This document shows positions 6,527 through 58,341 of a stretch of 64,000 bases of DNA, piece by piece. A model generated the notes under the pieces. That model was not told where the DNA came from. It searched no databases and saw only the letters and a list, made by a program, of their open reading frames with translations. Source of the stretch: Intestinimonas timonensis (GTDB lineage Bacteria > Bacillota > Clostridia > Oscillospirales > Oscillospiraceae); the NCBI RefSeq assembly GCF_900626145.1, contig NZ_LR130817.1, positions 552,336 through 616,335 on the forward strand. Reading direction: 5' to 3'. Each line of letters begins with the position of its first letter. Position 1 is the first letter of the stretch. A program made the translations under genes and the position numbers.

Positions 6527-6553
6527 CATAGGCCTTTATGGAGGTGTATTGTA

Positions 6554-7556: not shown

Positions 7557-7578
7557 CGAATAGGCTCGAAAAGAAAAT

Positions 7579-7614
7579 GAAGAGGCCGTGCAGACAGCAC
7601 AGTCTCTTCGTTTT
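7579..7614 (+). terminator. Intrinsic terminator
   Basis: GAAGAGGCCGTG / CAGTCTCTTC hairpin followed by GTTTTA. Confidence 0.5.
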
Positions 7615-7672
7615 ATCCGCATATTCGGCATGGTGTTTTATGGAGAAATCTGAATTTAAGGAGGTTTCGCAA

Positions 7673-7861
7673 ATGAAAATGACAGAAGAATTGAAACGTT
7701 CAAAATTGATTCTACGCATTGGGCGTGCACGCCGCTTATATGACGCTGGGAAAAATGCAGAAGAAATTGCGGCGGTTATGCGAGAGCCCATCGCGTTGAT
7801 GGAAAAATGGATCAATAACTTCAAAATCATTGACGAGAAAAGACGCACTCCAAACGGATAA
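7673..7861 (+). CDS. Small helix-turn-helix-like protein
   Basis: A 62-residue basic protein, MKMTEELKRSKLILRIGRAR, contains YDAGKNAEEIAAVMREPIALMEKWI, which reads like a helix-turn-helix (GKNAEEIAAVM followed by a recognition helix). AAGGAGG lies upstream. A DNA-binding role is inference from this pattern alone. Confidence 0.45.
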   Translation: MKMTEELKRSKLILRIGRARRLYDAGKNAEEIAAVMREPIALMEKWINNFKIIDEKRRTPNG

Positions 7862-7870
7862 CTCCGCAAT

Positions 7871-7902
7871 AGCAAGGGTCTGACGAAGACTCTTGCTTTT
7901 TT
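7871..7902. terminator. Terminator between convergent genes
   Basis: AGCAAGGGTC / GACTCTTGCT hairpin followed by TTTTTT. It touches the stop of the leftward gene at 7901. Confidence 0.7.
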
Positions 7903-8107
7903 AGTCAGGGTCCCAACCGGAGCCCATGTCTTTGATTTGGTCTTCTCCTGTCCCCCAACTGGCGCTGATGTCGGGAAGAGCGCAATCATAGCAAACATTG
8001 GCGTCTGGGTATTGATCGTCGTAAACACCCTTATAATATTCTCGACTGAGCTTTCGTCTCACGGCGGCAACATCAAACTCTTTGCCGCATTCTATACAAA
8101 CAGCCAT
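7901..8107 (-). CDS. Small zinc-binding protein, leftward
   Basis: A 68-residue leftward protein, MAVCIECGKEFDVAAVRRKL, has two cysteine pairs (CIEC and CYDC) and an acidic tail. A GGAGGGG ribosome site precedes the ATG at 8107. The pattern resembles small Clostridia phage zinc proteins of unknown function. Confidence 0.55.
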   Translation of the reverse strand: MAVCIECGKEFDVAAVRRKLSREYYKGVYDDQYPDANVCYDCALPDISASWGTGEDQIKDMGSGWDPD

Positions 8108-8249
8108 ATTCGCCCCTCCATACATAAAGGATGTTTCCATTTTACCATAGTCCTCGCCAAATTTACAAGGCGTTTTATGAGGAGAGAGCGCTCTTTACCT
8201 CAATATCAGCCGGAGCCGCAAGGCCCGGACGACTTAGGAGGTAATGCAA

Positions 8250-8585
8250 ATGCGTAAGAAGGGTAAAAAGGTCATTCGGCCGGCAGGAGACGAACTGATG
8301 GACTACCTGAACCGGGGGTTCGCGATCTGCAACCGGTGCGGGGCGGTGATGGACCGGAGAGAAGACCCAAGAGGAGGTTGTGATATTTACGCCTGCCCGT
8401 CCTGCGGATGGGAGATTGACGAGATGGAGTACGAGTATGAGAGCGGAGATCCGATGGAGCTCGTACAGGATGAAAGAGGCGATGACTACCTGGTCTTCCG
8501 GAACGACATGCCGCCCGCCGGGTGCAGAGCGTGCGGAGGCCCATACCCCTACTGCAAGCCGTCGTGCAGAATGTTCGACGACTAA
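8250..8585 (+). CDS. Zinc-finger phage protein
   Basis: A 111-residue protein starts MRKKGKKVIRPAGDELMDYL, seven bases after AGGAGG; ATG 8244 would be too close. Cysteine pairs ICNRCG and ACPSCG form one zinc site and CRACGGPYPYCKPSC a second. An acidic middle (MEYEYESGDPMELVQDERGD) separates them. The function is unknown. Confidence 0.55.
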   Translation: MRKKGKKVIRPAGDELMDYLNRGFAICNRCGAVMDRREDPRGGCDIYACPSCGWEIDEMEYEYESGDPMELVQDERGDDYLVFRNDMPPAGCRACGGPYPYCKPSCRMFDD

Positions 8586-8599
8586 GCATGACCAACGTA

Positions 8600-8636
8600 G
8601 AGGAGGAGCCCTGTAACAGGGGCTTTTCCTCTTTTA
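8600..8636 (+). terminator. Intrinsic terminator
   Basis: AGCCCCTG-type stem (GAGCCCTG / CAGGGGCTT) with a TTTTCCTCTTTT tail. Confidence 0.55.
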
Positions 8637-8651
8637 TATTTGGAGGCAGAC

Positions 8652-9011
8652 ATGCGCTATCACTACGAGAAGCCGCCCATTTATCTTTCCATGTACGGAC
8701 AGCGCTACTGCTGCGACCATCCGGTCTATAACCACTGCACCCTGTTCCTTGTCGGCGAACGGGGCCTGGCGGTGATTCAGCAGCGGTACGACCCGGAGAC
8801 GAAGCACACCTTCTGGGCCGAGGTAGACGAGTGGCTGACGGACCCATTATATCTGCACCCCCGGTTTCGGGCGTTCTTTGACCGCCGGGCCGGGACGGGT
8901 ACGGACGGCCTCTACCCCACCGTGACCATCCGGCAGATCATGTGGGCGCTGAAGATGAAGCCCCTGCCCAAGCAGCCCTGGGAGACGGTCTTCGACCATA
9001 CGCCGATTTGA
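8652..9011 (+). CDS. Conserved phage protein of unknown function
   Basis: A 119-residue soluble protein starts MRYHYEKPPIYLSMYGQRYC after TTTGGAGG. It is rich in tyrosine, histidine and tryptophan and contains CDHPVYNHCTLFL. No family is recognised. The next leader-like element begins at its stop codon (9001-9027). Confidence 0.5.
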   Translation: MRYHYEKPPIYLSMYGQRYCCDHPVYNHCTLFLVGERGLAVIQQRYDPETKHTFWAEVDEWLTDPLYLHPRFRAFFDRRAGTGTDGLYPTVTIRQIMWALKMKPLPKQPWETVFDHTPI

Positions 9012-9059
9012 CAACCTCCTTTATGAGAAACCAACTGATTTTGAAAGGGGTTGCGGTTT

Positions 9060-9209
9060 ATGAAAACATTCAAGAACAAGCTGTACGCTGTGGGGCTGAT
9101 GCTCTGCGGGAGTGTTCCGACATTCCTGGAGCAGGACGCCACGGCGCTGGTATTTATCGGGATGATTGCAGTTCCGCTGTTCTTTGCAAAAGAAAACTGG
9201 ATTTATTAA
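9060..9209 (+). CDS. Small membrane protein
   Basis: A 49-residue protein, MKTFKNKLYAVGLMLCGSVP, has two hydrophobic stretches (LYAVGLMLCGSVPTFL and ALVFIGMIAVPLFF). GAAAGGGG lies upstream. Similar tiny membrane proteins occur in Firmicute phages; the function is unknown. Confidence 0.5.
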   Translation: MKTFKNKLYAVGLMLCGSVPTFLEQDATALVFIGMIAVPLFFAKENWIY

Positions 9210-9215
9210 AGGGAA

Positions 9216-9241
9216 CGGCCCAGACAAGGGCTTTTCCTTTT
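9216..9241 (+). terminator. Weak intrinsic terminator
   Basis: A short GGCCC / GGGCT-type hairpin is followed by TTTTCCTTTTATTTTT. It follows the same layout as the other cassettes. Confidence 0.4.
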
Positions 9242-9306
9242 ATTTTTGCGCTTATTTCGCAGCTCCTATTACGGAGAACGATGCTCGTAAAAGGAGGTAA
9301 AGGGGC

Positions 9307-9522
9307 ATGGACGAAATGAGACTGGAATCGAAATTTACAACAGGACTTGTATCAAAAATCGCAAGGACCGTTGTGCGTAAGAAGCTGGGCTACGATATGG
9401 ATATTCGGCTCAACCGGCTGCGGACAACGGTGGTTGATGAAAAGACACACGTACATCTGGACGTCGATCTGGAGCTCACAAAGGAAGAGCTTGACAAATT
9501 ATTGAAGAGCATCGGGCTCTGA
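9307..9522 (+). CDS. Small phage protein
   Basis: A 71-residue protein starts MDEMRLESKFTTGLVSKIAR after AAAGGAGG. The body VVDEKTHVHLDVDLELTKEELDKLL looks like a small alpha/beta fold. It is conserved in phage small-gene regions as far as I recall, with no function. Confidence 0.5.
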   Translation: MDEMRLESKFTTGLVSKIARTVVRKKLGYDMDIRLNRLRTTVVDEKTHVHLDVDLELTKEELDKLLKSIGL

Positions 9523-9555
9523 GGCAGAGGCCCCATAACAGGGGCTTTTGTCTTT
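9523..9555 (+). terminator. Intrinsic terminator
   Basis: AGGCCCC / GGGGCTT hairpin around ATAACA followed by TTGTCTTTC. Confidence 0.5.
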
Positions 9556-9556
9556 C

Positions 9557-9655
9557 TTCCGCAGATTCCGCAGGTTCTATTGTGGAGAGGCATACAGCGA
9601 GCTACGAAGCGAGGGTGGTAGTAGGCAACGCAAGACGGAAACCCACCTGCCTCTC
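9557..9655 (+). ncRNA. Candidate small structured RNA cassette (tRNA-sized)
   Basis: A leader element (9557-9587) runs into a 71-base unit closed by a perfect 8-bp stem, GAGAGGCA (9585-9592) / TGCCTCTC (9648-9655). The size and the closing stem recall a tRNA, but there is no TTCGA arm. It precedes a real tRNA in the next cassette. It may be a degenerate tRNA or a small regulatory RNA. Confidence 0.35.
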
Positions 9656-9662
9656 TTAGGTT

Positions 9663-9693
9663 TTCGCAGATTTTGCAATTCCTATTATGGAGA
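9663..9693 (+). repeat. Cassette leader element before the tRNA
   Basis: TTCGCAGATTTTGCAATT then CCTATTATGGAGA. It is nearly identical to the copy at 4021-4051 over the first 20 bases and leads directly into the tRNA acceptor stem, which shows that the element is not tied to translation. Confidence 0.65.
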
Positions 9694-9763
9694 GGAAGTT
9701 AGCTCAATGGTAGAGCGCAGGCTGAAATGCCTGAGGCCGCCGGTTCGAGTCCGGCACTTTCTC
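9692..9763 (+). tRNA. Phage tRNA with atypical anticodon loop (possibly Phe GAA)
   Basis: The acceptor stem is GAGGAAG / CTTTCTC, the D arm GCTC-AATGGTA-GAGC and the T arm GCCGG-TTCGAGT-CCGGC, all perfect or with one wobble. The anticodon arm CAGGC / GCCTG encloses only six bases, TGAAAT, so the loop is one short; reading U33 as the first T gives anticodon GAA (Phe). The CCA end is not encoded. The D and T arms make a tRNA certain in origin, but the identity is unsure and it could be a decoy or degenerate tRNA. Confidence 0.65.
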
Positions 9764-32612: not shown

Positions 32613-32644
32613 TGCGCAAAAAGTGCAGCTCCTATTATGGAAGG
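32613..32644 (+). repeat. Cassette leader element in a transcribed leader
   Basis: TGCGCAAAAAGTGCAG then CTCCTATTATGGAAGG. It lies 20 to 50 bases downstream of the predicted start of transcription, and AAGGAGG of the next gene is part of it. Confidence 0.7.
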
Positions 32645-43880: not shown

Positions 43881-43919
43881 TCGCAGGAAAAACCGTCGCC
43901 TTTATGAGGAGGCGATGTT

Positions 43920-44135: not shown

Positions 44136-44261
44136 CCCAAATTGATATTTTAAGGCTGTTTTTCTTTCCGCGAAAAAAACAGACTCTTTTATGGAGAGGA
44201 GAGAGATATGTCGCGCATATCTTGTTCTTTCTATCACTTTTATCGGAAAGGAGGCCGTTCG

Positions 44262-44561
44262 ATGGCCCGAAGCGCAAGACTGGAAAGCGGTTTTCAAGAC
44301 CGGCTCATCAGCACGCTGAAAGCACGATTCCCTGGCTGCATGATATTTAAGATGGACCAGCGCCAGGGCATTCCCGACCTGTTGATTCTTTACGGCGAGA
44401 AATGGGCCTCCCTTGAATGCAAGAGATCTAACAAAGCCAAGAGACAGCCGAACCAGGAATATTACGTTGGGAAGATGAACGAGATGTCGTTCTCCAGATT
44501 CATCTCCCCGGAGAACAAGGAGGAAGTGTTGGATGAACTTTGTAAAGCATTCCAACCTTGA
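44262..44561 (+). CDS. VRR-NUC domain nuclease
   Basis: 99 residues starting MARSARLESGFQDRLISTLK after AAAGGAGG. GIPDLLILYGEKWASLECKR is the PD...(E)xK catalytic core of VRR-NUC. ATG 44208 is an in-frame alternative with its own GGAGAGG. These nucleases act on branched or structured DNA in recombination and repair. Confidence 0.8.
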   Translation: MARSARLESGFQDRLISTLKARFPGCMIFKMDQRQGIPDLLILYGEKWASLECKRSNKAKRQPNQEYYVGKMNEMSFSRFISPENKEEVLDELCKAFQP

Positions 44562-45087
44562 GGGTCAACATGCTTTTCTTGGCGCGAGCACCTATCACTG
44601 GATCAACTACACGGAAGAGAAGGTGGCCGACGCCTACGCCAAGTATCGTGCGGCCCAGCGCGGCACAGTCCTTCACTCTTTTGCCGCCCAGTGCATCAAG
44701 CTGGGTCAGCGGCTACCCAAGTCGCAAAAGACATTGAACATGTATGTCAACGATGCAATCGGTTACAAGATGACGCCGGAACAGATCCTCTACTATTCCC
44801 CGAACTGCTTCGGCACCGCTGACGCGATTTCATTTCGAGGCGACATGCTCCGGATTCATGATTTGAAAACTGGAGAAAGTCCGACACACATGGAACAGCT
44901 GATGATTTATGCGGCGCTCTTTTGCTTGGAGTATAACTACAAGCCGAACGAGATTCAAATGGAGCTTCGTATTTATCAGAATGACGGAATCATTTGTCAC
45001 CAGCCCACGATCGAAGATATTTTCCCCATCATGGACCGGATCATAACCTTCGATAAAATCATCAACAGTATCAAAGAGGAGGAGTAA
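44533..45087 (+). CDS. PD-(D/E)XK exonuclease (Cas4/RecB-like)
   Basis: 184 residues. GTVLHSFAAQ, YYSPNCFGTADAISFRGDML, RIHDLKTGESPTHMEQLMIY and AALFCLE carry the H...D...(D/E)xK...Q/Y motifs of RecB/Cas4-type nucleases. It overlaps the VRR-NUC gene by 29 bases and stops three bases before the polymerase gene, so all three are coupled. It is likely a recombination or DNA-processing nuclease. Confidence 0.8.
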   Translation: MNFVKHSNLEGQHAFLGASTYHWINYTEEKVADAYAKYRAAQRGTVLHSFAAQCIKLGQRLPKSQKTLNMYVNDAIGYKMTPEQILYYSPNCFGTADAISFRGDMLRIHDLKTGESPTHMEQLMIYAALFCLEYNYKPNEIQMELRIYQNDGIICHQPTIEDIFPIMDRIITFDKIINSIKEEE

Positions 45088-45090: not shown

Positions 45091-47811
45091 ATGAACCCCA
45101 TCGCGGAAGATATTTTGATGCACTATGGCGTCAAGCGGCGCTCTGGGCGCTACCCCTGGGGTTCTGGTGAAAACCCCTATCAGCATGGCGGCGACTTTCT
45201 GGCCAGAGTGGAAGAACTCGAAGCCATGGGAAAGAGCCAAAAAGAAATTGCCGAAGAACTGAAGATGTCCACTACTGACCTTCGTATGCAGGTTCGGGTG
45301 GCAAAGCATGAGCGACGGGCTCTCCAGGCGGAACGGGCCAAGTCCCTTCGTGAAGAAGGAAAGACTCTCGATGAGATTGCCAAAATCATGGGGTACAACA
45401 ACGACTCCTCGGTTCGTGCGCTTCTCAATGAAAACACCGCCAGCAACAAGAACAAGGCCCTTGCTACCGCCGAGGCATTGAAGAAAGAGCTGGCAGTAAA
45501 AGGGGCTCTTGATGTTGGCGAGGGCGTAGAGCAGCAGCTTGGCGTCTCGAAAGGAGTTCTTCAGGAAGCTCTGTTCATTTTGGAAACAGAAGGTTATAAC
45601 CGATATGGCGTTGGAGTCCCTCAGGTGAACGATCCCAAGAAGCGGACAATCACTCCGGTTATTTCGGTTCCCGACATCGAGCAGAGAGACGCCTACCAGA
45701 ACCTCGACATCATCAAGTCGGTGGGCGACTATCACTCTTCGGATGGAGGCGCATCCTGGGATAAGCGCGAGTATCCGGCAAGCATCGATTCAAGCCGAGT
45801 CAAGGTGCTCTATGGGGATGAGGGCGGCTCGAACAAGGACGGAGTCATTGAAATTCGTCGTGGCGTTGCAGACCTTGACCTGGGAAACGCTCACTATGCG
45901 CAGGTACGCATTCTTGTGGATGGGACGCATTACCTCAAGGGCATGGCCATGTATTCTGATGACATGCCGGAGGGGTGTGACATCGTGTTTAACACGAACA
46001 AGCACTCCGGAACGCCCAAGATGGATGTATTCAAAAAGATTCAGGATGACCCAGACAATCCTTTCGGCGCATTCATCAAGGCCAACGGTCAGAGCTACTA
46101 CCCCGACCCGAATGGCAAGTACACAGACCCGATTACCGGCGAGAAAAAATCTTTGTCGGCCATCAATAAGCTGAAGGAGGAGGGTGACTGGGACAAGATG
46201 AGTAAGAACTTGTCCTCCCAGTTCCTATCCAAGCAGCCCATCAAACTGATCCAGAAGCAGTTGGATTTGACCTATGCCGATGCGGCCGATGAATTCGCCG
46301 AGATTTGCTCTCTGAACAACCCGACTATCAAGCGGAAGCTTCTTATGGACTTTGCAGATGAATGTGATTCTGCCGTCGTCCATCTGAAAGCGGCCGCCCT
46401 CCCCCGGCAGAGCACACAGGTCATCCTGCCTATCACAGCAATGAAGGAAACGGAAATCTATGCCCCCAACTATCGTAACGGTGAGAAAGTTGTGCTGATC
46501 CGCTACCCTCATGGCGGAACCTTTGAAATTCCGGAGTTGACGGTCAACAACAAGAATCAGTCGGCCATCTCCGTTCTCGGCAAGAACATCAGGGATGCGG
46601 TCGGCATCAACCCGAAGGTGGCGGAACGGCTGTCCGGCGCGGACTTTGATGGCGACCAGGTTGTTGTCATTCCTGTTGGCGGAAAGGTTTCTGTAAAATC
46701 TACCCCCGCCCTGGAGGGGTTGAAAGGTTTCGACCCTAAAACGGAATACTCCACCGAGGGGAAGACCGGTATCCGGCTTCTCTCAAAAGAAGCCACCCAG
46801 ATCGAGATGGGGAAGATTTCCAACCTCATCACCGATATGACCTTAAAAGGGGCCCCCACCGAGGACATCACGAAAGCTGTCAGACACAGCATGGTCGTCA
46901 TCGATGCGGCAAAGCACAAACTCGACTACAAGCGTTCGGAGATTGAAAACGACATCCCCACCCTTCGTAAGCGGTGGCAGGGTTACACTGACCCCGAAAC
47001 CGGCAAAGAGAAAGGTGGTGCCTCCACCCTGCTTTCCAGGCGCAAGCAGACCGTCGATGTTCCCGAGCGTCAGGGCAGTGGACGCATTGACCGGGAGACT
47101 GGCGAAGTCGTCTATAAGGAGTCTGGTCGAACCTATATAGACCCTAAGACTGGGAAAACAGTTCAGGCCACGACGAAGATCAAGTTGCTGGAGAAAACCA
47201 AGGATGTTCGCACCTTGTCCTCTGGCACCGTTCAGGAAGATGCCTATGCCGACTATGCCAATCGTATGAAAGCACTCGCCAACCAGGCGAGACTTGAGTA
47301 TCTGGATACGCCGACATTGGTACGGAACGCCAGCGCAGCAAAAACATATGCGCCTGAAGTCGCAAGGCTGACCAGTGCACTGAAGACTGCGCAGCTTAAC
47401 GCCCCTAAGGAACGTGAGGCCCAGCGCATCGCCAATGCTCAGGTAAAGGCCAAGGTTCAGGCGAACAATGTCACCGACAAAGACGAAATCTCTAAGATTC
47501 GTCGTGCAGCGATCAGTGACGCTCGCGTTTCCACTGGTGCAAGCGGAAAAGGAACGCGCATTACGATCTCCGATGGAGAATGGGAAGCAATCCAAGCTGG
47601 CGCGATCTCTGATACAACCTTGAAAGAGATTCTTCGTTACTCTGATCCCGATGTCGTCCGGGAGCGCGCAACCCCAAGAGCATCGACGCAGCTGTCTGAA
47701 GCTCGTGTCAATCGCATTAAAGCGATGGCCAATTCTGGAAGCACCAACTCCGAAATTGCAGATGCTTTGGGCATTTCGCCTTCTGTCGTTTCCAAGTATC
47801 TCAATGAGTAA
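45091..47811 (+). CDS. Single-chain RNA polymerase, YonO-like (putative)
   Basis: 906 residues. The key evidence is SGADFDGDQVVVIP with D518, D520 and D522, equivalent to the NADFDGDQM metal site of beta-prime and to the DxDGD of YonO-like and RdRp-like two-barrel polymerases. Near residue 282, YLKGMAMYSDDMPEGCDIVF resembles the lysine-bearing partner barrel. The length matches YonO of SP-beta as I recall it. Residues 1-31 hold HYGVKRRSGRYPWGSGENPY, akin to the virion-protein tag, then an HTH (AEELKMSTTDLRMQVR); the last 20 residues form another HTH (NSEIADALGISPSVVSKYL). Its position just before the late operon suggests transcription of late genes. Confidence 0.8.
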   Translation: MNPIAEDILMHYGVKRRSGRYPWGSGENPYQHGGDFLARVEELEAMGKSQKEIAEELKMSTTDLRMQVRVAKHERRALQAERAKSLREEGKTLDEIAKIMGYNNDSSVRALLNENTASNKNKALATAEALKKELAVKGALDVGEGVEQQLGVSKGVLQEALFILETEGYNRYGVGVPQVNDPKKRTITPVISVPDIEQRDAYQNLDIIKSVGDYHSSDGGASWDKREYPASIDSSRVKVLYGDEGGSNKDGVIEIRRGVADLDLGNAHYAQVRILVDGTHYLKGMAMYSDDMPEGCDIVFNTNKHSGTPKMDVFKKIQDDPDNPFGAFIKANGQSYYPDPNGKYTDPITGEKKSLSAINKLKEEGDWDKMSKNLSSQFLSKQPIKLIQKQLDLTYADAADEFAEICSLNNPTIKRKLLMDFADECDSAVVHLKAAALPRQSTQVILPITAMKETEIYAPNYRNGEKVVLIRYPHGGTFEIPELTVNNKNQSAISVLGKNIRDAVGINPKVAERLSGADFDGDQVVVIPVGGKVSVKSTPALEGLKGFDPKTEYSTEGKTGIRLLSKEATQIEMGKISNLITDMTLKGAPTEDITKAVRHSMVVIDAAKHKLDYKRSEIENDIPTLRKRWQGYTDPETGKEKGGASTLLSRRKQTVDVPERQGSGRIDRETGEVVYKESGRTYIDPKTGKTVQATTKIKLLEKTKDVRTLSSGTVQEDAYADYANRMKALANQARLEYLDTPTLVRNASAAKTYAPEVARLTSALKTAQLNAPKEREAQRIANAQVKAKVQANNVTDKDEISKIRRAAISDARVSTGASGKGTRITISDGEWEAIQAGAISDTTLKEILRYSDPDVVRERATPRASTQLSEARVNRIKAMANSGSTNSEIADALGISPSVVSKYLNE

Positions 47812-47829: not shown

Positions 47830-48093
47830 ATGGAAATGTGTATGCTTACTACTACCGATAACCCCTACGACCCTTTTACACAGTATGAAGCGTGGTATCG
47901 GTTCGACGAAGACAACGGCTATCATTCCTGCGCTTTCTTAGCGCGCATCGCCCGTACTTCCGATCAGCTCTCTGACAAGGAGAACCAGGAAGAAATCGAG
48001 CGAGCAATCAACGATATCATCAAGTACGACCCCCTGGGCATCTATAAAAAGGTCAAGAAGATTGTGCAATCCGAGCCTGCCGTGACCGCATGA
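47830..48093 (+). CDS. Conserved small phage protein
   Basis: 87 residues, MEMCMLTTTDNPYDPFTQYE...WYRFDEDNGYHSCAFLARIA, a very recurrent protein of Firmicute phages usually close to the terminase. Its function is unknown. A terminator follows at 48119. Confidence 0.65.
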   Translation: MEMCMLTTTDNPYDPFTQYEAWYRFDEDNGYHSCAFLARIARTSDQLSDKENQEEIERAINDIIKYDPLGIYKKVKKIVQSEPAVTA

Positions 48094-49788: not shown

Positions 49789-50172
49789 ATGGAGATCACA
49801 GAAAGCGTCCTGACATCTGTCAAGAAACTGCTGGGGATCGACGAAGGCTACACGCACTTTGACGCCGACATTGTAATGCACATCAACAGCGTGTTTTCGA
49901 TTCTGACACAGATGGGGGTCGGGCCGGCAAACGGATTCTCCATTACGGGGAAAGACGAAGGCTGGTCCGATTTCATTTCTGGCGGGGCCGTCCTGCCCCT
50001 GGTCAAATCTTATGTCGGCCTGAAGGTGCGCCTGCTGTTTGACCCGCCCCTCAGCTCTGCGGCCGTCGAGTCTATGAACCGGCAGATCAGCGAGTTTGAG
50101 TGGCGGCTTTTCGTTGCGGCAGACCCAGTCGAACCCACCAGCGGGAAGGAGGAACTTCAAAATGGAGCATGA
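49789..50172 (+). CDS. Head-tail connector-like protein (gp6 type)
   Basis: 127 residues. VLTSVKKLLGIDEGYTHFDA, DIVMHINSVFSILTQMGVGP and YVGLKVRLLFDPPLSSAAVE reproduce the helical gp6-like (Phage_connect_1) head completion proteins. Its place ahead of terminase is shifted from the usual order. Confidence 0.7.
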   Translation: MEITESVLTSVKKLLGIDEGYTHFDADIVMHINSVFSILTQMGVGPANGFSITGKDEGWSDFISGGAVLPLVKSYVGLKVRLLFDPPLSSAAVESMNRQISEFEWRLFVAADPVEPTSGKEELQNGA

Positions 50173-50677
50173 TGCATTACTGCACTACGGAATCAAAGGA
50201 ATGAAGTGGGGCGTGCGCCGTTACCAGAACAAGGACGGTTCGCTGACCCCCAAAGGAGAGGCGCGCTACGACCGTGACAAGCGGGAGAACGCGGCCAAGA
50301 AGAAGGAAAACCGGATTGACCTCTCCCAGCCTGATCCGAAGCGCTGGGCAAAGGAGGACCTGGAGCGCACCAAGCGCACCGTGGACGCCAGCGCCAACCT
50401 GGCCAAGGAGCTGAAGAAGCTGGACGAGAGCACCACTTCCAAGCCGACACCAAAGCGGATGGACCTGTCCAAGATGAGCGACAAGGAGATGCGGGATCAG
50501 ATTAACCGGGAGCTGCTGGAACGGCAGTATAACCAGCTGTTCGCGGAAGTGCCTGCCGCTCAGGTCTCCAAGGGCCGCGAAGCGCTCAAGACCACGCTGG
50601 AAGTTGCCGGCAGCGTTCTGGCCATTGGCAGCAGCGCACTGGGCATCGCGTTGGCCATCAAGGAACTGAAGGGCTGA
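50162..50677 (+). CDS. HYGIKGMKWGVR-tagged protein 1
   Basis: 171 residues starting MEHDALLHYGIKGMKWGVRR after AAGGAGG. The tag at residues 7-20 is followed by YQNKDGSLTPKGEARYDRD, a long charged helix and a C-terminal hydrophobic segment (TLEVAGSVLAIGSSALGIAL). The tag opens many Firmicute phage proteins in the head region. I infer a virion-associated or ejected protein. It is a paralogue of the genes at 53359 and 53933. Confidence 0.65.
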   Translation: MEHDALLHYGIKGMKWGVRRYQNKDGSLTPKGEARYDRDKRENAAKKKENRIDLSQPDPKRWAKEDLERTKRTVDASANLAKELKKLDESTTSKPTPKRMDLSKMSDKEMRDQINRELLERQYNQLFAEVPAAQVSKGREALKTTLEVAGSVLAIGSSALGIALAIKELKG

Positions 50678-50688: not shown

Positions 50689-51573
50689 ATGGAGCTGCGC
50701 CACCACGGCATTTTGGGCCAGAAATGGGGCGTGCGCAACGGCCCGCCCTATCCATTGAGCGGCGGTGACTATACTCCGTCCCAGCGGAAGGCCATTTCCA
50801 ACAAACGCAAAAGCGGCAACAGCATCTACAACAAGAAGCACTTCGATGAGGTGCTGAAGGTTGATAAGACCACGCTGAGCACGCTGTCCTATGATAAGGA
50901 CCGGACCAAGAACGCCGATATGTTCTACGCCACCCACCATGCTCTGGATAAACACCAGTACAACGCCCTGTTCAACCGGCCGATTCCCCAGACGGTCTAT
51001 GATAAGGATGGAAAGGCGATCGGCACAGGTTCGTTCATGAAGTACCGGATCGACAATTCCCTCAAGACCGACCTGAAGGTGGCCAGCGAGGATTCCGGAG
51101 CCAAGGTCTTTATGGACCTCTATAAGAAGGACCGGGATTTCTACAACTTTGTCACTGACCGGGAGCGGATGCAGGGGTACTTTGTAAACGACAAGTACAA
51201 GTTCAAGGGCTACCGCGAAGCAGCGGCCGTCCTTGGGAAGATGCGGGAGCCGGACTACAAGCCGACCTCCGATGACCTTCAGACCGTGTACCGGATGTTC
51301 AACTACGTCATCCCCTATGACGGTCAGGGCGACAGCCGAAAGGGACGCGATATGTATAACCAGCGCACCAAGTTCTTCCATGCGTGCAAGGAGGCCGGTT
51401 ATGGCGCAGTTCTGGACACGAACGACGCCATATACGGCGGGTTCAAGGCCAAGTCACCCATTATCGTGTTCGATATGGAGCAGGTGGTCCCGAAAGACGT
51501 CTACCGCACAAATCTGACGGATCAGAAGTTTTCCACTCTGGTCCTGGTCGGCCGGAAGCTGCTGGGCTTGTAA
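50689..51573 (+). CDS. HHGILGQKWGVR-tagged protein 2
   Basis: 294 residues starting MELRHHGILGQKWGVRNGPP. After the tag and YPLSGGDYTPSQRKAI comes a domain of about 240 residues (KADMFYATHHALDKHQYNAL-like, EAGYGAVLDTNDAIYGGFKA, SPIIVFD) that I do not recognise. It may be a virion-borne effector. The tag matches that inside the DUF5662 protein (NGPPYPL ending). Confidence 0.6.
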   Translation: MELRHHGILGQKWGVRNGPPYPLSGGDYTPSQRKAISNKRKSGNSIYNKKHFDEVLKVDKTTLSTLSYDKDRTKNADMFYATHHALDKHQYNALFNRPIPQTVYDKDGKAIGTGSFMKYRIDNSLKTDLKVASEDSGAKVFMDLYKKDRDFYNFVTDRERMQGYFVNDKYKFKGYREAAAVLGKMREPDYKPTSDDLQTVYRMFNYVIPYDGQGDSRKGRDMYNQRTKFFHACKEAGYGAVLDTNDAIYGGFKAKSPIIVFDMEQVVPKDVYRTNLTDQKFSTLVLVGRKLLGL

Positions 51574-51591: not shown

Positions 51592-53340
51592 ATGTTATCC
51601 AACACCGCCGTCCCCCGTTATTATGGAGCATTTCGGGACGCCGTTCTCCGAGGGGATATTCACGTCTGCAAGGAAGTGGCGATGGAGATGTGGCGGATCG
51701 ACCGCCTGATCGAGTCACCGGGATATTACTACGATGACCGGGCGGTGGAGGGATGGATTGAGTTCTGCGAGAACGAGCTGACCCTAACTGATGGCTCCGA
51801 CCTGCATCTTCTGGATACCTTCAAGCTCTGGGGCGAACAGGTGTTTGGATGGTACTATTTCGACGACCGCTCTGTCTATGTGCCGAACCCGGATGGACGG
51901 GGCGGCCGGTATGTGACGAAGCGGGTCAAGCAGCGGCTGACCAAGAAGCAGTACCTCATTGTGGGAAGAGGCGCGGCCAAGTCCCTCTACGACTCCTGCA
52001 TCCAGGCCTATTTCTGTGTGGTGGACGGCTCGACGACCCATCAGATCACGACGGCCCCCACCATGAAGCAGGCGGAGGAGATCGTCAACCCCATCAAGAC
52101 CGCCATCACCAGAGCGAGAGGCCCTGTGTTTCAGTTCATGACCGAGGGTTCCTTGCAGAACACCACCGGCTCCAGAGCCAACCGCGTCAAGCTGGCCTCT
52201 ACAAAGAAGGGGATCGAGAACTTCATCTCCGGCTCCCTGGTGGAGGTCCGTCCCATGTCGGTGGACAAGCTCCAGGGACTCCGCTGCAAAGTGGCCACGG
52301 TGGATGAGTGGCTTTCTTCGGCGGACGCCCGGGAGGATGTCATCGGTGCCATTGAGCAGGGCGCATCCAAGCTGGACGACTACCTGATCATCGCCACCAG
52401 CTCCGAGGGCACGGTCCGAAACGGAGCGGGCGATACCATCAAAATGGAGCTGATGAACATTCTTCAGGGTATCGGCCCTCCCCAGGAGCACGTGTCCATC
52501 TGGTGGTACAAGCTGGACTCCGTGGAAGAGGTCGCCTATCCGGGCATGTGGATCAAGGCAAACCCCAATCTGGGAAAGACCGTGACCTACGAGACCTACC
52601 AGAAGGACGTTGACCGGGCAGAAACGGCCCCCGCCACCCGCAACGATATGCTGGCAAAGCGGTTCGGGCTGCCCATGGAGGGCTACACCTACTACTTCAC
52701 CTATGAGGAGACTCTCCCCCATCGCCGGCAGAGATTTTGGCAGATGCCCTGCTCCCTGGGGGCAGACCTTTCCCAGGGCGACGACTTCTGCTCCTTTACC
52801 TTCCTGTTTCCTCTTCGGGATGGCTCCTTTGGCGTCAAGACCCGAAACTACATCACATCGCTGACCCTGCACAAGCTGCCGGCGGCCATGCGGGTGAAGT
52901 ATGAGGACTTCATGGCGGAGGGGAGCCTGATCGTCATGGAGGGTACTGTTCTGGACATGATGCAGGTCTACGATGACCTGGACGAGCACATCATCAACCG
53001 GGGCTATGACGTGCGCTGCTTTGGCTACGACCCATACAACGCCCAGGAGTTCATCAAGCGGTGGACAGATGAAAACGGCCCCTTCGGCGTAGAAGTGGTC
53101 CGACAGGGTTCCCGGACGGAATCTGTCCCTCTGGGCGAGCTGAAAAAGCTGGCCGGAGAGCGTATGCTGCTCTTTGACGAGGAGCTGCTCACCTTCTCCA
53201 TGGGAAATTGCATCACCATGGAGGACACCAATGGAAACCGGAAGCTGCTGAAGAAACGGTCCGACCAGAAAATCGACGCTGTGGCGGCCATGATGGATGC
53301 GTATGTGGCCTATAAGCACAATCCAGAAGCATTTGAATAA
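51592..53340 (+). CDS. terL: Terminase large subunit
   Basis: 582 residues. ATPase: a Walker-A-like IVGRGAAKSL (residues 123-132), Walker B VATVDEWLS (~233) and a coupling TSS motif. Nuclease: GADLSQGDD (~391), a middle acidic FGYDP and DAVAAMMDAY at the C terminus. It is the packaging motor and DNA nuclease, of the usual length for Firmicute siphophages. It is preceded by tagged protein 2 and followed by a G10 run. Confidence 0.93.
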   Translation: MLSNTAVPRYYGAFRDAVLRGDIHVCKEVAMEMWRIDRLIESPGYYYDDRAVEGWIEFCENELTLTDGSDLHLLDTFKLWGEQVFGWYYFDDRSVYVPNPDGRGGRYVTKRVKQRLTKKQYLIVGRGAAKSLYDSCIQAYFCVVDGSTTHQITTAPTMKQAEEIVNPIKTAITRARGPVFQFMTEGSLQNTTGSRANRVKLASTKKGIENFISGSLVEVRPMSVDKLQGLRCKVATVDEWLSSADAREDVIGAIEQGASKLDDYLIIATSSEGTVRNGAGDTIKMELMNILQGIGPPQEHVSIWWYKLDSVEEVAYPGMWIKANPNLGKTVTYETYQKDVDRAETAPATRNDMLAKRFGLPMEGYTYYFTYEETLPHRRQRFWQMPCSLGADLSQGDDFCSFTFLFPLRDGSFGVKTRNYITSLTLHKLPAAMRVKYEDFMAEGSLIVMEGTVLDMMQVYDDLDEHIINRGYDVRCFGYDPYNAQEFIKRWTDENGPFGVEVVRQGSRTESVPLGELKKLAGERMLLFDEELLTFSMGNCITMEDTNGNRKLLKKRSDQKIDAVAAMMDAYVAYKHNPEAFE

Positions 53341-53358: not shown

Positions 53359-53916
53359 ATGAAGCCCTATGAAAAGCCTCTCTCCCCGCAGGAGTACCTG
53401 ATGCACTACGGTGTCAAGGGTATGAAATGGGGCGTAAGACGCTACCAGAACTACGACGGTTCTTACACCCGCAAGGGTCTGGAACGGTATCGCAAAGCGG
53501 AGTCGGACTACGAAACCGCTAAGTCGAAAGCAGACGAAACCAGGGCCGCCTACAAATCCGGTCAAGCTACCCGTCAGCAGGTCAAGGATGCCAAGAGCGC
53601 TGTTAAGACCGAGAAGCGTAAAATGGAAAACGCTTATGAAAAGCTGAAAACCGACAAACTGGCCGATGAAGGAAAGAAGCTTTACCAGAGTGGAAAAACT
53701 ATTTCGGGAAACACCCAAGCGACCTATTTGGCCGAGGGCGTTATCATTGCTGGAAGCACCGTGGTGTCCAGACTTCTCGCGAACCAACTGAACAACCAGG
53801 AGGTTGCCAATATTGCCGCATCGACCATCGCGATCGGCGGAACGATTGTCAATGGTTTACTGGCGGCAAAGACGAGCAGGGAGAACAAACGGCTGAGAGC
53901 GTACTACGCCCACTAA
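53359..53916 (+). CDS. HYGVKGMKWGVR-tagged protein 3
   Basis: 185 residues. MKPYEKPLSPQEYLMHYGVK, the tag and RRYQNYDGSYTRKGLERY lead into a long coiled coil (residues 40-105) and a C-terminal hydrophobic region (VIIAGSTVVSRLL, then ASTIAIGGTIVNGLL). The first 35 residues are almost identical to the next protein, so a recent duplication of the tag module is likely. Confidence 0.65.
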   Translation: MKPYEKPLSPQEYLMHYGVKGMKWGVRRYQNYDGSYTRKGLERYRKAESDYETAKSKADETRAAYKSGQATRQQVKDAKSAVKTEKRKMENAYEKLKTDKLADEGKKLYQSGKTISGNTQATYLAEGVIIAGSTVVSRLLANQLNNQEVANIAASTIAIGGTIVNGLLAAKTSRENKRLRAYYAH

Positions 53917-53932: not shown

Positions 53933-54814
53933 ATGGGTCCTTACGACAAACCTTTTTCTCCCCAAGAATACCTGATGCACTACGGCGTCAAGGGTATGAA
54001 ATGGGGCGTACGTCGTTACCAGAACAAGGATGGTACATTGACAAAAGCCGGAAAAGAACGGTATAGTCAGAACCAGCAGGACGGGGTTGATTCTTTTCTG
54101 AAGAGTGTGGGTTCCAAAAAGGTTTCCGAATTGACCGGTTCTGTAAATGAAGATCTCGCAATCCAGGCGGTTACATATGTTTCCGCATTTGCCGCTGTTC
54201 TCGCCGTGAAAGCGGTACAAAACCGAATGCTGCGGAAAGGCCGGATGAAAGAGCTGGATAGGCTCAACCGGGAGAAGGATATTAAAGACTTTGACGAGTG
54301 CCCCCGCCTCCCCCGGAAGATGAAAGCGGAAGAGAGCGTCAAAGTAACCAATCCGGATTATCCTGATTTGGGCACCACCATGAATTGCACCTTCTGCACA
54401 ACCGCCATGGCCCTTCGAGAGAAGGGATATGACGTGCAGGCGACAAAAGTCAGTGATGGATTCTTTTCTGATGACTTTTTCAAAGCCACTTTCAATTCCC
54501 CTGAGGTCAAAATGGGAAGGAAAAAGTCGGGGCAAGCCGTTCTCGATACGCTTTCGCAGACCGGCGACGGGTCCTATGGCAATCTGACCGTGGCTTGGAA
54601 ACTCGGGGGTAAGCATAGTCTTTTCTGGAAGAATGAGGGCGGCAGAACTCGAATCTATGACGGTCAGAGCGGAGAAGAGATTACTCAATCTCCGTCGAAA
54701 ACCAGATCGTTCATGGACTTTGTCAATCTGAAAACCATCACATATAACCGCCTTGATAATTGCGAGCCAACCACCTATGCCTTGGCCGCGGTTGAACGAC
54801 CTAAAAAGATGTAA
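53933..54814 (+). CDS. HYGVKGMKWGVR-tagged protein with papain-like domain
   Basis: 293 residues. The tag module (residues 1-40) and a membrane-like stretch (YVSAFAAVLAVKAVQ) precede a C-terminal domain with NCTFCTTAMALREKGYDV, LGGKHSLFWKNEGG and RIYDGQSGE, which gives Cys, His and Asp in the order of papain-fold toxin/peptidase domains. It could be a virion-delivered protease or deamidase. The small gene at 54830 follows and might be its partner. Confidence 0.6.
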   Translation: MGPYDKPFSPQEYLMHYGVKGMKWGVRRYQNKDGTLTKAGKERYSQNQQDGVDSFLKSVGSKKVSELTGSVNEDLAIQAVTYVSAFAAVLAVKAVQNRMLRKGRMKELDRLNREKDIKDFDECPRLPRKMKAEESVKVTNPDYPDLGTTMNCTFCTTAMALREKGYDVQATKVSDGFFSDDFFKATFNSPEVKMGRKKSGQAVLDTLSQTGDGSYGNLTVAWKLGGKHSLFWKNEGGRTRIYDGQSGEEITQSPSKTRSFMDFVNLKTITYNRLDNCEPTTYALAAVERPKKM

Positions 54815-55163: not shown

Positions 55164-56411
55164 ATGGAAATTGCATTTGGTTCCAGGCTGAAACATGCCT
55201 GGAACGCTTTTTTGGGTAACGAAACCTTTGGGTTCCGATACCCGCTTGGCCCAAGCTCCTCCTACCGTCCGGACCGGCCCATTTTCAGCCGGGGCAATGA
55301 GCGGTCCATCATCACATCGGTCTACAACCGGATCGCGCTGGACGCGTCCTCCATCGCCATCCAGCACGCGAGGCTGGATGAGGACGGGCGGTTTACCGAG
55401 GTGATCGACTCCTCGCTGAATTCCTGCTTGTCCCTGGAGGCGAATCTGGACCAGACCGGACGGGCCTTTATCCAGGACGTGGTCATGTCCATGCTGGACG
55501 AGGGCTGCGTGGCCATCGTGCCCACGGACACCGATATCGACCCGGAAAACGGCTCCTACAAAATCGAGAAGCTGCGGGTCGGCAAGGTCCTGGAATGGTA
55601 TCCACAGCACGTAAAGCTGCGGGTCTATAACGAGCAGCGGGGTGAAAAGCAGGACATCATCCTGCCCAAGAGCACAGTGGCCCTGGTGGAGAACCCGTTC
55701 TTCGCAATCATGAACGAGCCCAACTCCACCATGCAGCGGCTGATCCGGAAGCTGAACATTCTGGACGCCATCGACGAACAGAGCGGCTCCGGAAAGCTCA
55801 ATCTGATCATCCAGCTCCCCTACGTCATCAAGACGGAAGCGAGACGTCAACAGGCGGAAAAACGCCGTAGAGATATTGAGGAACAGTTGTCCGGCTCCAA
55901 GTATGGCGTCGCTTACACCGACGGCACGGAGCATGTGGTGCAGCTGAACCGGCCCATCGACAACAATCTGATGTCCCAGATTGAATACCTGACGAGTATG
56001 CTTTACAGCCAGTTGGGAATCACCCAGGGGATATTGGACGGCACTGCTGATGACCGGACGAAGCTGAACTACGACAACCGGACCATCGAACCCATCCTGT
56101 CCGCCATTGTTGACGAAATGAAGAGGAAATTCCTCACCAAAACTGCTCGGTCACAGAAGCAGTCGATCCTGTTCTTCAGAGACCCGTTCAGGCTGGTGCC
56201 CATCAACGACATCGCCGAAATCGCCGACAAGATGACTCGCAATGAGATCATGACCTCCAACGAGATCCGGCAGAAGATCGGTATGAAGCCGTCGAAGGAC
56301 CCCAAGGCGGACGAGCTCCGGAACAGTAACCTAAGCGCCCCGAAAGGGGAGGGCGAACAGCCACCATCTGAATCCGAAGGAGGAAATGTTCAAAATGGAT
56401 CTGAAGTTTGA
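55164..56411 (+). CDS. Portal protein (HK97 type)
   Basis: 415 residues. ERSIITSVYNRIALDASSIA, EWYPQHVKLRVYNEQRG, the SQLGITQGILDGTADDRTKL wing region and a C-terminal proline/glutamate-rich tail are typical of HK97-like portals, which form the dodecameric ring for DNA entry. GGAGGTG lies upstream. It overlaps the protease-capsid gene by 17 bases. Confidence 0.9.
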   Translation: MEIAFGSRLKHAWNAFLGNETFGFRYPLGPSSSYRPDRPIFSRGNERSIITSVYNRIALDASSIAIQHARLDEDGRFTEVIDSSLNSCLSLEANLDQTGRAFIQDVVMSMLDEGCVAIVPTDTDIDPENGSYKIEKLRVGKVLEWYPQHVKLRVYNEQRGEKQDIILPKSTVALVENPFFAIMNEPNSTMQRLIRKLNILDAIDEQSGSGKLNLIIQLPYVIKTEARRQQAEKRRRDIEEQLSGSKYGVAYTDGTEHVVQLNRPIDNNLMSQIEYLTSMLYSQLGITQGILDGTADDRTKLNYDNRTIEPILSAIVDEMKRKFLTKTARSQKQSILFFRDPFRLVPINDIAEIADKMTRNEIMTSNEIRQKIGMKPSKDPKADELRNSNLSAPKGEGEQPPSESEGGNVQNGSEV

Positions 56412-58341
56412 CTTTAGTGGCTGGGCTACCCGAAACGATCTTGTCTGCGCTGATGGGCGAACCATTCGCCACAACGCATTCGAGCATTGCGACGGGAAGA
56501 CGGTTCCTCTTGTTTGGAACCACCAGCACAACGAACCCACCAACATCCTGGGCCACGCCCTCTTGGAGAACCGCAAGGACGGCGTCTATGCATACTGCAC
56601 GTTCAACGAGAGTGAGAGCGGCAAAGCGGCCAAGGAGCTGGTGCAGCACGGGGACATTGTGTCCCTCTCCATCTATGCCAATGGGCTCCAGCAGACGCCG
56701 AACAAGGACGTCATGCACGGCGACATCCGCGAGGTCAGCCTGGTAGTGGCCGGTGCGAATCCCGGCGCCTTCATTGACTTCGTGGACATGGCTCATGGGG
56801 AAGGCGGTGAGCAGGAGATGATCCTGTCCGCTTACGAGCCTATTTCCCTGTACCGTCCCGATGAGAAGCCCCCGCTGATCCACAAGGCCGATACCAAGGA
56901 GAAGCCTGATGACAAGCCCAACGCGGGCGAAGACGGGGACAAACCTAAGGATGGCGATAAGTCCAAGGGCAAAGAGAAGCCCGAGGACGAGGAGACCATC
57001 GAGGATGTTGTCAACACCATGAACGAGAAGCAGAAGAAGGTCATGTACGCTTTGATTGCTGCCGCCGCGGAGCAGGTGAACGACAACGCCGAGGATGACG
57101 AGGAAGAGGACCCCGATGACCCCGACAACAAATCCGACAAATCTAAGGGAGGAAACAAGACCATGAAGCACAATGTGTTCGACACTGAAGACACTCAGGA
57201 CACCGTTCTGAGCCACTCCGACTGCGCTGACATTCTTGCTCTGGCCAAGAGCAGCAGCGTGGGTAGCCTTCGGACTGCTCTGAAGATCTACGCTGATCAG
57301 AACGAACTCAAGCACGGCATCGACAACATCGAGAGCCTGTTCCCCGACTACAAGGATCTGCGCCCCGGCGCTCCTGAGCGGGTCGCTCGTGACCAGGGCT
57401 GGGTGAGCGTTGTCATGCGCAAGGTTCACAAGAGCCCCATCAGCCGCATCCGCACCCGCCAGGCGGACACCCGCAAGGACAGTATCCGGGCCCACGGCTA
57501 TCAGAAGGGCAAGCGTAAGCAGCTCTCCGGCAACATGAACGTCATCACCCGGACCACCGATCCCCAGACCGTGTACCGCACCGATGCCCTGCACCGGGAC
57601 GACATCATCGACATCACCGATTTCGATGTGGTGGAGTACCAGTACGCCGTTATGCGGGAGAACATCAATGAAGATGTCGCTACCGCCATCATGGTGGGCG
57701 ATGGCCGTGAGCCGGATGATGAGATGAAGATTTCCGAGGATCACATCCGCTCCATTTGGAACGACAACGACCTCTACACCATCCACTACGACGTGGACAT
57801 CGAGGCCGCCAAGGCCGAGCTCCAGGGCAGCAAGACCAGCATGAGCTTCGGCGAGAACTATATCTATGCTGAGGCAGTCATCGCCGCCGCCCTCTATGCC
57901 CGTGAGAAGTACAAGGGCACCGGCACCCCCGATTTCTTCTGCACGCCCCATATGGTCAACGTGATGCTGCTGGCCCGGGACATGAACGGCCGCCGCATTT
58001 ACACCTCCAAGGCCGACCTGGCCGCCGCCCTGAATGTGGGCGAGCTCTACACTGCCGAGCAGTTTGAGGGTCTGGTGCGCATGGATGACGAGGGCCACAA
58101 GCACAAGCTGCTGGGCATCTTCGTCAACCTGACCGACTACACCGTGGGCTCCACCAAGGGCGGCGAGATCGCCCGGTTCGACCAGTTCGACATCGACTTC
58201 AACCAGCAGAAGTACCTGATCGAGACCCGGCTGTCCGGTGCTCTGACCCGCGTCTACTCCGCCATCGCTCTGGAGGAGCCCGTGGCTGCCTTCGCCTCCG
58301 GCGGTACTGGCGGCGATGGCGGCGGGGCCGGCACTCCCTGA
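56395..58341 (+). CDS. Prohead protease - major capsid protein fusion
   Basis: 648 residues from ATG 56395, eleven bases after AAGGAGG. Residues 1-135 are a HK97-type prohead protease (LVWNHQHNE with the catalytic His, DIVSLSIYANG with the Ser, IREVSLVVAGANPGAFI). A charged linker of about 110 residues follows. Residues 257-648 are the major capsid protein (ISRIRTRQADTRKDSIRAHG, YIYAEAVIAAALYAREKYKG). At the junction AAGGGAGG precedes in-frame ATG 57163, so free capsid protein can be made from the same message. Confidence 0.88.
   Translation: MDLKFDFSGWATRNDLVCADGRTIRHNAFEHCDGKTVPLVWNHQHNEPTNILGHALLENRKDGVYAYCTFNESESGKAAKELVQHGDIVSLSIYANGLQQTPNKDVMHGDIREVSLVVAGANPGAFIDFVDMAHGEGGEQEMILSAYEPISLYRPDEKPPLIHKADTKEKPDDKPNAGEDGDKPKDGDKSKGKEKPEDEETIEDVVNTMNEKQKKVMYALIAAAAEQVNDNAEDDEEEDPDDPDNKSDKSKGGNKTMKHNVFDTEDTQDTVLSHSDCADILALAKSSSVGSLRTALKIYADQNELKHGIDNIESLFPDYKDLRPGAPERVARDQGWVSVVMRKVHKSPISRIRTRQADTRKDSIRAHGYQKGKRKQLSGNMNVITRTTDPQTVYRTDALHRDDIIDITDFDVVEYQYAVMRENINEDVATAIMVGDGREPDDEMKISEDHIRSIWNDNDLYTIHYDVDIEAAKAELQGSKTSMSFGENYIYAEAVIAAALYAREKYKGTGTPDFFCTPHMVNVMLLARDMNGRRIYTSKADLAAALNVGELYTAEQFEGLVRMDDEGHKHKLLGIFVNLTDYTVGSTKGGEIARFDQFDIDFNQQKYLIETRLSGALTRVYSAIALEEPVAAFASGGTGGDGGGAGTP
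57163..58341 (+). CDS. Internal start: major capsid protein alone
   Basis: ATG 57163 (MKHNVFDTEDTQDTVLSHSD) follows AAGGGAGGAAACAAGACC, a good ribosome site inside the fused gene. The 392-residue product would be the normal-sized HK97-fold capsid protein, needed in far greater amounts than the protease. This is an alternative product, not a separate gene copy. Confidence 0.6.
   Translation: MKHNVFDTEDTQDTVLSHSDCADILALAKSSSVGSLRTALKIYADQNELKHGIDNIESLFPDYKDLRPGAPERVARDQGWVSVVMRKVHKSPISRIRTRQADTRKDSIRAHGYQKGKRKQLSGNMNVITRTTDPQTVYRTDALHRDDIIDITDFDVVEYQYAVMRENINEDVATAIMVGDGREPDDEMKISEDHIRSIWNDNDLYTIHYDVDIEAAKAELQGSKTSMSFGENYIYAEAVIAAALYAREKYKGTGTPDFFCTPHMVNVMLLARDMNGRRIYTSKADLAAALNVGELYTAEQFEGLVRMDDEGHKHKLLGIFVNLTDYTVGSTKGGEIARFDQFDIDFNQQKYLIETRLSGALTRVYSAIALEEPVAAFASGGTGGDGGGAGTP

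Follow-up and report, generated by a model that had tools for sequence, protein, structure and literature searches.

A phage-encoded single-chain two-barrel RNA polymerase and a promoter-like element that accompanies its gene

Two-barrel RNA polymerases (RNAPs) are known from several phages. YonO of SP-beta has been demonstrated to be a DNA-dependent RNAP that prefers DNA, and its promoter is left open in the accessible part of that work (PMC5467207). According to the accessible part of PMC10770324, P23-45 has gp96, a virion RNAP fused to the tail tape measure, and gp64, a non-virion two-barrel RNAP that transcribes the early and some of the middle genes; gp66 of the crAss-like phage phi14:2, cited there, is a single-subunit two-barrel virion RNAP. 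Here we consider a gene for a protein of this kind in a stretch of 64,000 nucleotides from Intestinimonas timonensis (contig NZ_LR130817.1, positions 552,336 to 616,335; hereafter the window), together with a repeated promoter-like element in phages that carry the gene. The best explanation of the whole, and in our judgement a likely one, is that of an early-gene RNAP which is delivered with the virion and has cognate promoters.

The gene is an open reading frame (ORF) for 906 amino acids with an ATG start at 45091-47811 on the + strand, where a first-pass annotation, made from the letters of the window, had placed a phage RNAP related to YonO. The PHROG 4291 profile matches it over its full length (residues 4-905; 1207.1 bits, E 0). 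By its structure model, the product is almost certainly a two-barrel polymerase in one chain. The model, which that annotation had proposed as a check for two double-psi barrels, matches QDE-1, RDR2 and Thermus phage RNAPs; the matched residues lie within ~224-742, as do both motifs described below. The barrels of the model are packed as in the solved members of the superfamily. Folds of the P23-45 gp62/gp64 type (8f5m, 8f72) are also matched, and the nearest solved relatives are enzymes of the QDE-1/RDR type. The crAss protein gp66 is not among the structure matches listed, which excludes nothing.

The DxDxD metal-binding triad of the superfamily lies in one barrel within ADFDGDQ (residues 517-523), as had been read from the sequence, and D518, D520 and D522 are invariant in an alignment of 69 sequences, the window protein included. 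The partner barrel had been suspected around YLKGMAMYSDD; this motif occupies residues 281-291, and K283, together with K304 within FNTNK, is likewise invariant. The second barrel thus has the conserved basic residues of the superfamily, whose role here would follow from its description in the accessible part of PMC7824862. R471, P473 and H474 are also invariant. The alignment comprises 69 of 76 chosen sequences, one having been left out for a stop codon and six as a precaution.

The relation to YonO stands for fold and architecture, namely a phage-encoded single chain with both barrels, but not for sequence: the profile of the 69 sequences shows no similarity to YonO by hhalign (probability 0.2%, 18 columns, outside the barrels). 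PF05183 matches eight of 13 family members at E <= 0.01 (best 9.5e-5); four scored members reach 15.0-19.1 bits and not the curated cut-off of 23.8 bits, and the window protein has no match at E <= 1. Searching the PDB by sequence alone, whether the query was the protein or a profile of 13 sequences, returned helix-turn-helix (HTH) proteins and designed repeats and no polymerase. HTH segments had been proposed at both ends. The C-terminal one (residues 867-906) exceeds several Pfam cut-offs; the N-terminal profiles (within residues ~39-128) are below cut-off in the window protein and above it in some relatives (residues 72-110 in one of them).

Such proteins had been thought rare. The family is, in fact, widespread, with at least 8000 homologues. 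By tblastn the gene is present in 251 of 50,697 phage records (Arthrobacter 95, Gordonia 55, Streptomyces 54, Lactococcus 13, Siphovirus contigs 12, Curtobacterium 7, and others), and in 249 the match extends across 80% or more of the protein. Among the 60 matches listed, the names are mostly HTH or DNA-binding protein, hypothetical protein and RNA-dependent RNA polymerase; the first of these may be so common because the significant Pfam matches are HTHs. As a separate observation, a 197-codon frame in another genome (G001:C1:296155-296439) is 34% identical to RNAP residues 538-632; the full copy of that genome lies separately at 351561, and the frame is possibly a remnant of a second polymerase.

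The phages that carry the gene also carry a repeated intergenic promoter-like element, which is new. A repeat scan of the window found a 30-nt element that ends in TATTATGGA and is present 13 times, and similar scans gave CGCATGTTTTACATATACTATAGTAGAAAG in phage 1706, CGCGAAAAATACA...CTTTATGGAA in FP_oengus, TTTTACATACCCTATAATGAAAG in P162, CGCGTAAATTACACGGGCTATAATGAGA in Mudcat and CGCAGAAATTACATGCCCTATAATGAGA in OhMyWard. The repeats of these six phages align without gaps as CGCR, N5, TRCA, N4, CTATAATG, with CGCA-N5-TACA-N4 typical and the first box CACA in most copies of 1706. Constancy is highest, at 0.99 each, at C11 (the C of box 2) and T20 (the third base of the hexamer). A matrix was built from the six phages; its training sites include at least one that is out of register (lowest score -23.1). 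A fixed pattern from the window and 1706 was tried and discarded, as it gave chance-like matches only in FP_oengus, P162 (18 kb) and ReqiPoco6 (1-40 kb); the elements of FP_oengus and P162 were recognised later through their own repeats.

The linkage of the element to the gene is strong. Six further RNAP phages were fetched before their repeats were examined, and all six have forward sites (OlympicHelado 12, ReqiPoco6 14, BitterVaud1 5, Camille 8, HotFries 7, Eevee 9), 55 in total, with none on the reverse strand. Five phages in which tblastn found no such polymerase (phiC31, r1t, ArV2, GTE2, FP_Mushu) have one forward site in all, in ArV2, and no reverse site. With the columns of the matrix permuted, the held-out loci had on average 0.86 and never more than 5 forward sites, compared with the 55 above; spacer-shifted matrices still gave 0-23, because the boxes alone can pass the threshold. 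A blastn search with the 42-nt consensus matched 1207 places in 233 of the 50,697 phage records. The counts of element and RNAP records are equal for Arthrobacter, Gordonia, Streptomyces, Siphovirus, Rhodococcus and Microbacterium, equal counts being no proof of identical records, and the remaining element records (Curtobacterium 4, Lactococcus 4, Caudovirus 1) bear names that also occur among the RNAP records. In IMG/VR, 79 stretches have the exact 28-mer pattern of the element; among them are 29 distinct contigs that are at least 35 kb long and under metagenome (3300) names, isolate records and shorter contigs being left out. The polymerase is encoded on 22 of these 29 contigs, which were chosen by the element, and on all 13 that are 47 kb or longer.

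The placement of the sites is regular. They are intergenic in 51 of 55 cases in the held-out phages and in 91 of 102 over 11 loci, and 81 of the 102 lie within 100 nt of the next coding sequence start. In the window 20 sites pass the matrix, 15 of them between 2.6 and 9.7 kb (Table 1). In seven of 11 phages a distance of 907-974 nt separates the RNAP start from the nearest site upstream, and in Camille it is 1588 nt; BitterVaud1 was left out of this count because its polymerase sits at the start of the record. No forward site is found in the late regions of the window (after 45.1 kb), HotFries (1-22.6 kb), BitterVaud1 (1-28 kb), FP_oengus (32-46 kb), ReqiPoco6 (1-40 kb) and 1706 (1-24 kb), or at the tail-gene ends of Mudcat and OhMyWard. 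From gene order, the genes behind the elements would be early ones. Because of the linkage, the HTHs of the enzyme and the analogous case of P23-45 (PMC10770324, accessible part), the candidate element is probably read by the two-barrel polymerase.

The mechanism that we propose is as follows. A single-chain, DNA-templated two-barrel RNAP would transcribe the early genes of the phage. Its two double-psi barrels would form the active site, with D518, D520 and D522 binding metal and the other barrel supplying the conserved lysines, and the HTH segments would be the likely readers of a cognate promoter resembling CGC[AG]-N5-T[AG]CA-N4-C-TATAATG. This promoter would stand in the short intergenic gaps before early-region genes and, in seven of the 11 phages, some 0.9-1 kb ahead of the polymerase gene. 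Since the element heads the nuclease-exonuclease-RNAP operon, the enzyme would amplify its own production; and since such promoters need the enzyme from the start, it would probably travel in the virion and enter the cell together with the DNA.

That the polymerase is packaged appears somewhat more probable than the reverse, and several observations bear on it. Its phage 1706 orthologue, orf75, is a 'structural protein' in the original record (EU081845) and an 'RNA-dependent RNA polymerase' in RefSeq. In EU081845 homology-looking names bear 'putative', and the plain label is also given to ORFs 62 and 71, which are small and lie outside the structural region; because of this naming pattern, orf75 may have been detected experimentally. 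ReqiPoco6 gp106, the RNAP of that phage, is called 'structural protein' by similarity to orf75.

Near the start of the window protein is a peptide, HYGVKRRSGRYPWGSG (residues 11-26), which the first-pass annotation had likened to a tag of virion-region proteins. Of the 69 sequences, 67 have letters at this place; among these, H11, G13, S18, G19, R20, Y21, G24, S25 and G26 are constant, and P22, Y12 and W23 are conserved at 97%, 93% and 87%. The peptide ranks 14th of 891 windows of the alignment in conservation, with a predicted local distance difference test score (pLDDT) below 50. The peptide is real. Head-module ORFs of such phages bear H-x-G...KWG tags. Three of the four tagged head-module ORFs of the window pass the cut-off of the DUF7211 (PF23847) tag model (41.1, 49.0 and 47.5 bits), and the fourth scores 17.9 bits. 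In 1706 a six-frame scan found tags in only two ORFs, both labelled structural: orf7, with two H-x-G...GM[KR]WG tags, and orf75, with the SGRYPWGSG form. ReqiPoco6 has seven KWG-tagged ORFs around the terminase and before the portal gene. The KWG tag as a query (E up to 10) has matches in 247 phage records, whose genus counts are nearly those of the RNAP, and the RNAP peptide has matches in 253. The conserved and probably disordered H-x-G...SGRYPWGSG start could be a packaging signal akin to the KWG tags; the chances for and against this seem to us evenly balanced.

Among the tagged proteins, the ORF at 53933-54814, between terminase and portal, is a candidate packaged effector, its papain-fold toxin 1 match (PF15644; E 1.1e-4) reaching 23.6 bits against a cut-off of 24.1. 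The ORF at 50689-51573 may have ADP-ribosyltransferase motifs; its structure model has a pLDDT of 45. Head-packaged ADP-ribosyltransferases near terminase and portal genes are discussed in PMC9503650, in the accessible part of which the tag strings do not occur. Similar strings were seen elsewhere. The ORF at 34842-35765 of the window, outside the head module, has a KWG-type tag, HHGVKGQKWGVRNGPPYP, about 180 residues from its start (codons near 35385). The unannotated fecal phage contig MT835616 has two places that match SGRYPWGSG, and motifs like SGRYPWGTG or SGRFPWGKK occur in triad-less ORFs of loci L055 (~codon 1867) and L102 (~codon 1094); the SGRYPWGSG type of peptide may thus be found on other proteins too. 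No description of such a promoter, tag or packaged polymerase was met in the literature as far as it was accessible, which is weak evidence of novelty, subscription papers being mostly outside the search.

A number of points weigh against a virion-delivered polymerase with its own promoters. The sites of BitterVaud1 are few and weaker, the training loci have two reverse sites beside 79 forward ones, and P162 retains box 2 and the 3' block without the CGC box. The consensus matched fewer records than carry the gene in Lactococcus (4 of 13) and Curtobacterium (4 of 7), and seven of the 29 element contigs, all of 35-46 kb and perhaps fragments, lack the polymerase. In HotFries the nearest site, 1251 nt upstream of the RNAP, is inside a coding gene, and in 1706 and P162 the 5.6 kb in front of the RNAP gene contain none. 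Since the phages belong to related lineages, common descent may explain why gene and element occur together. The element, which contains a TANNNT-like hexamer usable by host sigma70, could also be read by a different protein that the phages share. As for packaging, the 1706 label is known from the GenBank record only, and RNAP residues 5-15 score 12.4 bits (E 0.11) against the DUF7211 cut-off of 27, so that the equivalence of peptide and tag is conjectural.

By analogy with P23-45, polymerase and promoters might be as described and the enzyme not packaged, the host RNAP making the first transcripts, that of the RNAP gene included, and the phage enzyme then taking over early and middle genes. 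P23-45 gp64 is such a non-virion enzyme (PMC10770324, accessible part), and sigma70-like matches are enriched in the window between 2000 and 15000 (20 against 7.9 in shuffles, both strands together, mostly away from the phage elements); these could serve lysogenic or first transcripts. We nevertheless consider this unlikely in view of the structural label of orf75, the conservation of the low-confidence N-terminal peptide and the position of the phage element at the head of the RNAP operon in seven of 11 phages, which poses a start-up problem for an undelivered enzyme, a host promoter further upstream being possible.

A reading that is less probable still takes the repeats for promoters of host sigma70 or for sites of a regulator (activator boxes, repressor stoperators); the host RNAP would use them together with another conserved phage protein, and the two-barrel enzyme would act on different genes. 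In its favour, the 3' half reads TATAAT in Mudcat and, for the most part, in OhMyWard, and other phages have asymmetric repressor sites that recur between genes. Over 134 sites, however, there is no -35 signal (2.42 of 6 matched, background 2.44). The equivalent of the sigma -11 A is A in 0.81 of sites and in none of 13 from FP_oengus, below the near-constancy of C11 and T20, and the layout is common to phages of Firmicutes and Actinobacteria. Terminator-like hairpins, moreover, end just ahead of some copies, as expected of separate terminator-promoter units: in the window at 5957 before 5974 and at 9232 before 9249, with one at 4433 before a sub-threshold copy at 4444, and in FP_oengus a hairpin-like repeat ends just before the copies at 4907 and 5178. 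In the element at 9665, TATTAT ends at 9688 and a tRNA-like gene begins at ~9692-9693, which is close for the usual sigma70 start spacing; the argument is weak, as the tRNA is odd. These features fit a phage-specific reader. The tRNA-like gene itself (9692-9764) is called with a four-base anticodon by ARAGORN, and in ReqiPoco6 an element (2669) likewise stands just before a tRNA (2701-2774).

A true RNA-dependent RNAP, as the PHROG 4291 and several RefSeq names, the weak PF05183 matches and the nearest solved folds would have it, is very improbable, since the name follows similarity to eukaryotic RDRs, QDE-1 itself has been solved with DNA templates (PDB entry titles), YonO prefers DNA (PMC5467207, accessible part) and a DNA promoter-like element tracks the gene. 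Hardly credible, too, is a catalytically spent structural or DNA-binding virion protein, compatible with the 1706 label and the terminal HTHs and opposed by the invariance of the triad, both lysines and R471, P473 and H474.

The features of the window are collected in Table 1. The small ORF before the exonuclease is a putative nuclease by its position and a motif. Further upstream, at 42555-42748, are three copies of a ~26-nt direct repeat resembling ACTGGCCATTTGCCCACTTT, at a spacing of 84 nt.

Table 1. Positions in the window of the polymerase gene, its segments, the promoter-like elements and neighbouring genes
Feature	Position	Strand	Basis or remark
Early-region block, 15 promoter-like elements	2651..9694	+	Starts 2651, 3317, 3656, 4022, 4191, 5680, 5974, 6516, 7056, 7618, 8155, 9001, 9249, 9560, 9665
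Promoter-like element CGCAGAAATTGCATCTCCTATTATGGAGAA	13093..13122	+	Repeat scan, matrix
Promoter-like element CGCAGAAATTGCATCTCCTATTATGGAGAA	14465..14494	+	Repeat scan, matrix
Promoter-like element CGCAAAAAGTGCAGCTCCTATTATGGAAGG	32615..32644	+	Repeat scan, matrix
Weaker promoter-like element, score 14.0	43882..43911	+	Matrix
Promoter-like element heading nuclease-exonuclease-RNAP genes, 922 nt upstream of polymerase start	44169..44198	+	Repeat scan, matrix
Small ORF in place of VRR-nuclease gene of related phages	44208..44561	+	Position
Exonuclease directly upstream of RNAP (PHROG 3953)	44533..45087	+	FP_oengus counterpart annotated 'cas4 family nuclease'
Single-chain two-barrel RNAP, 906 aa	45091..47811	+	PHROG 4291, motifs, structure model
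N-terminal peptide HYGVKRRSGRYPWGSG, residues 11-26, candidate virion tag	45121..45168	+	Conservation; pLDDT below 50
N-terminal helical/HTH region, residues 33-120	45187..45450	+	HTH profiles, structure model
Beta-like barrel segment, residues 268-305, K283 and K304	45892..46005	+	Alignment, structure match; lysine roles and exact barrel limits inferred
Beta-prime-like barrel segment, residues 466-530, RYPHGG and ADFDGDQ	46486..46680	+	Alignment, structure match
C-terminal HTH, residues 867-906	47689..47808	+	Pfam matches
Small conserved ORF directly downstream of RNAP (PHROG 4303)	47830..48093	+	Profile match
Head-module ORF, H-x-G...GMKWGVRR tag (DUF7211)	50096..50677	+	Profile match
Head-module ORF, HHGILGQKWGVR tag (DUF7211 below cut-off)	50689..51573	+	Profile; structure model pLDDT 45
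Large terminase	51592..53340	+	Profile match
Head-module ORF, HYGVKGMKWGVRR tag (DUF7211)	53359..53916	+	Profile match
Head-module ORF, HYGVKGMKWGVRR tag (DUF7211), papain-fold/glutamine-deamidase-like domain	53933..54814	+	PF15644 just below cut-off
Portal protein	55164..56411	+	Profile match
Head maturation protease (S78), perhaps a fusion with the capsid protein (so annotated in 1706 orf10 and Eevee gp18)	56386..58341	+	

A wider proposal can be offered tentatively, its chances being a little under even: that a large siphophage lineage of Actinobacteria and Firmicutes delivers its polymerase in the virion, that the H-x-G peptide is a portable signal for the polymerase and, in the KWG form, for enzyme-like effectors, and that an early promoter common to these phages and devoid of a -35 box is used as soon as the DNA enters, independently of the host RNAP. 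About 250 phage records, with hosts that include Lactococcus, Arthrobacter, Gordonia and Streptomyces, provide testable cases of a compact one-chain relative of the cellular RNAP with a predicted promoter. With a defined promoter, an enzyme of ~100 kDa would make two-barrel transcription accessible in a minimal form, and the tag, should it be real, would account for the entry into virions of enzymes unfused to structural proteins.

Among the known systems, gp66 of phi14:2 resembles the window RNAP in its single-subunit two-barrel architecture and is a virion RNAP; it is a much larger protein, from a phage of other hosts. YonO resembles it as a single phage chain with two barrels and the aspartate triad, but serves late genes, whereas sites of the window type lie in early regions; 40 kb of SP-beta scanned with the element matrix gave two forward and two reverse sites. 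The eukaryotic two-barrel enzymes QDE-1 and RDR2 (PF05183) have no phmmer match to the phage protein, whose terminal HTHs, N-terminal peptide and promoter linkage set it apart from them. The PHROG 4291 'RNA-dependent RNA polymerases' (Lactococcus phage 1706 orf75, FP_oengus AUV56548.1, Gordonia phage OhMyWard gp85) are full-length homologues with no structural difference from the window protein, and FP_oengus and OhMyWard share with the window the exonuclease gene upstream and the small ORF downstream of the RNAP; none of the names given to members (RNA-dependent RNA polymerase, HTH or DNA-binding, structural, putative RNA polymerase, hypothetical) describes a promoter-linked early polymerase. 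P23-45 gp96 is delivered by fusion to the tape measure, whereas the window RNAP is a separate protein with a short N-terminal peptide, and the promoters differ. The likeness to gp96 and gp64 is that of phage two-barrel RNAPs which serve, or in the window would serve, pre-early and early genes, and whose motifs, according to the accessible part of PMC10770324, co-occur with the gene among relatives.

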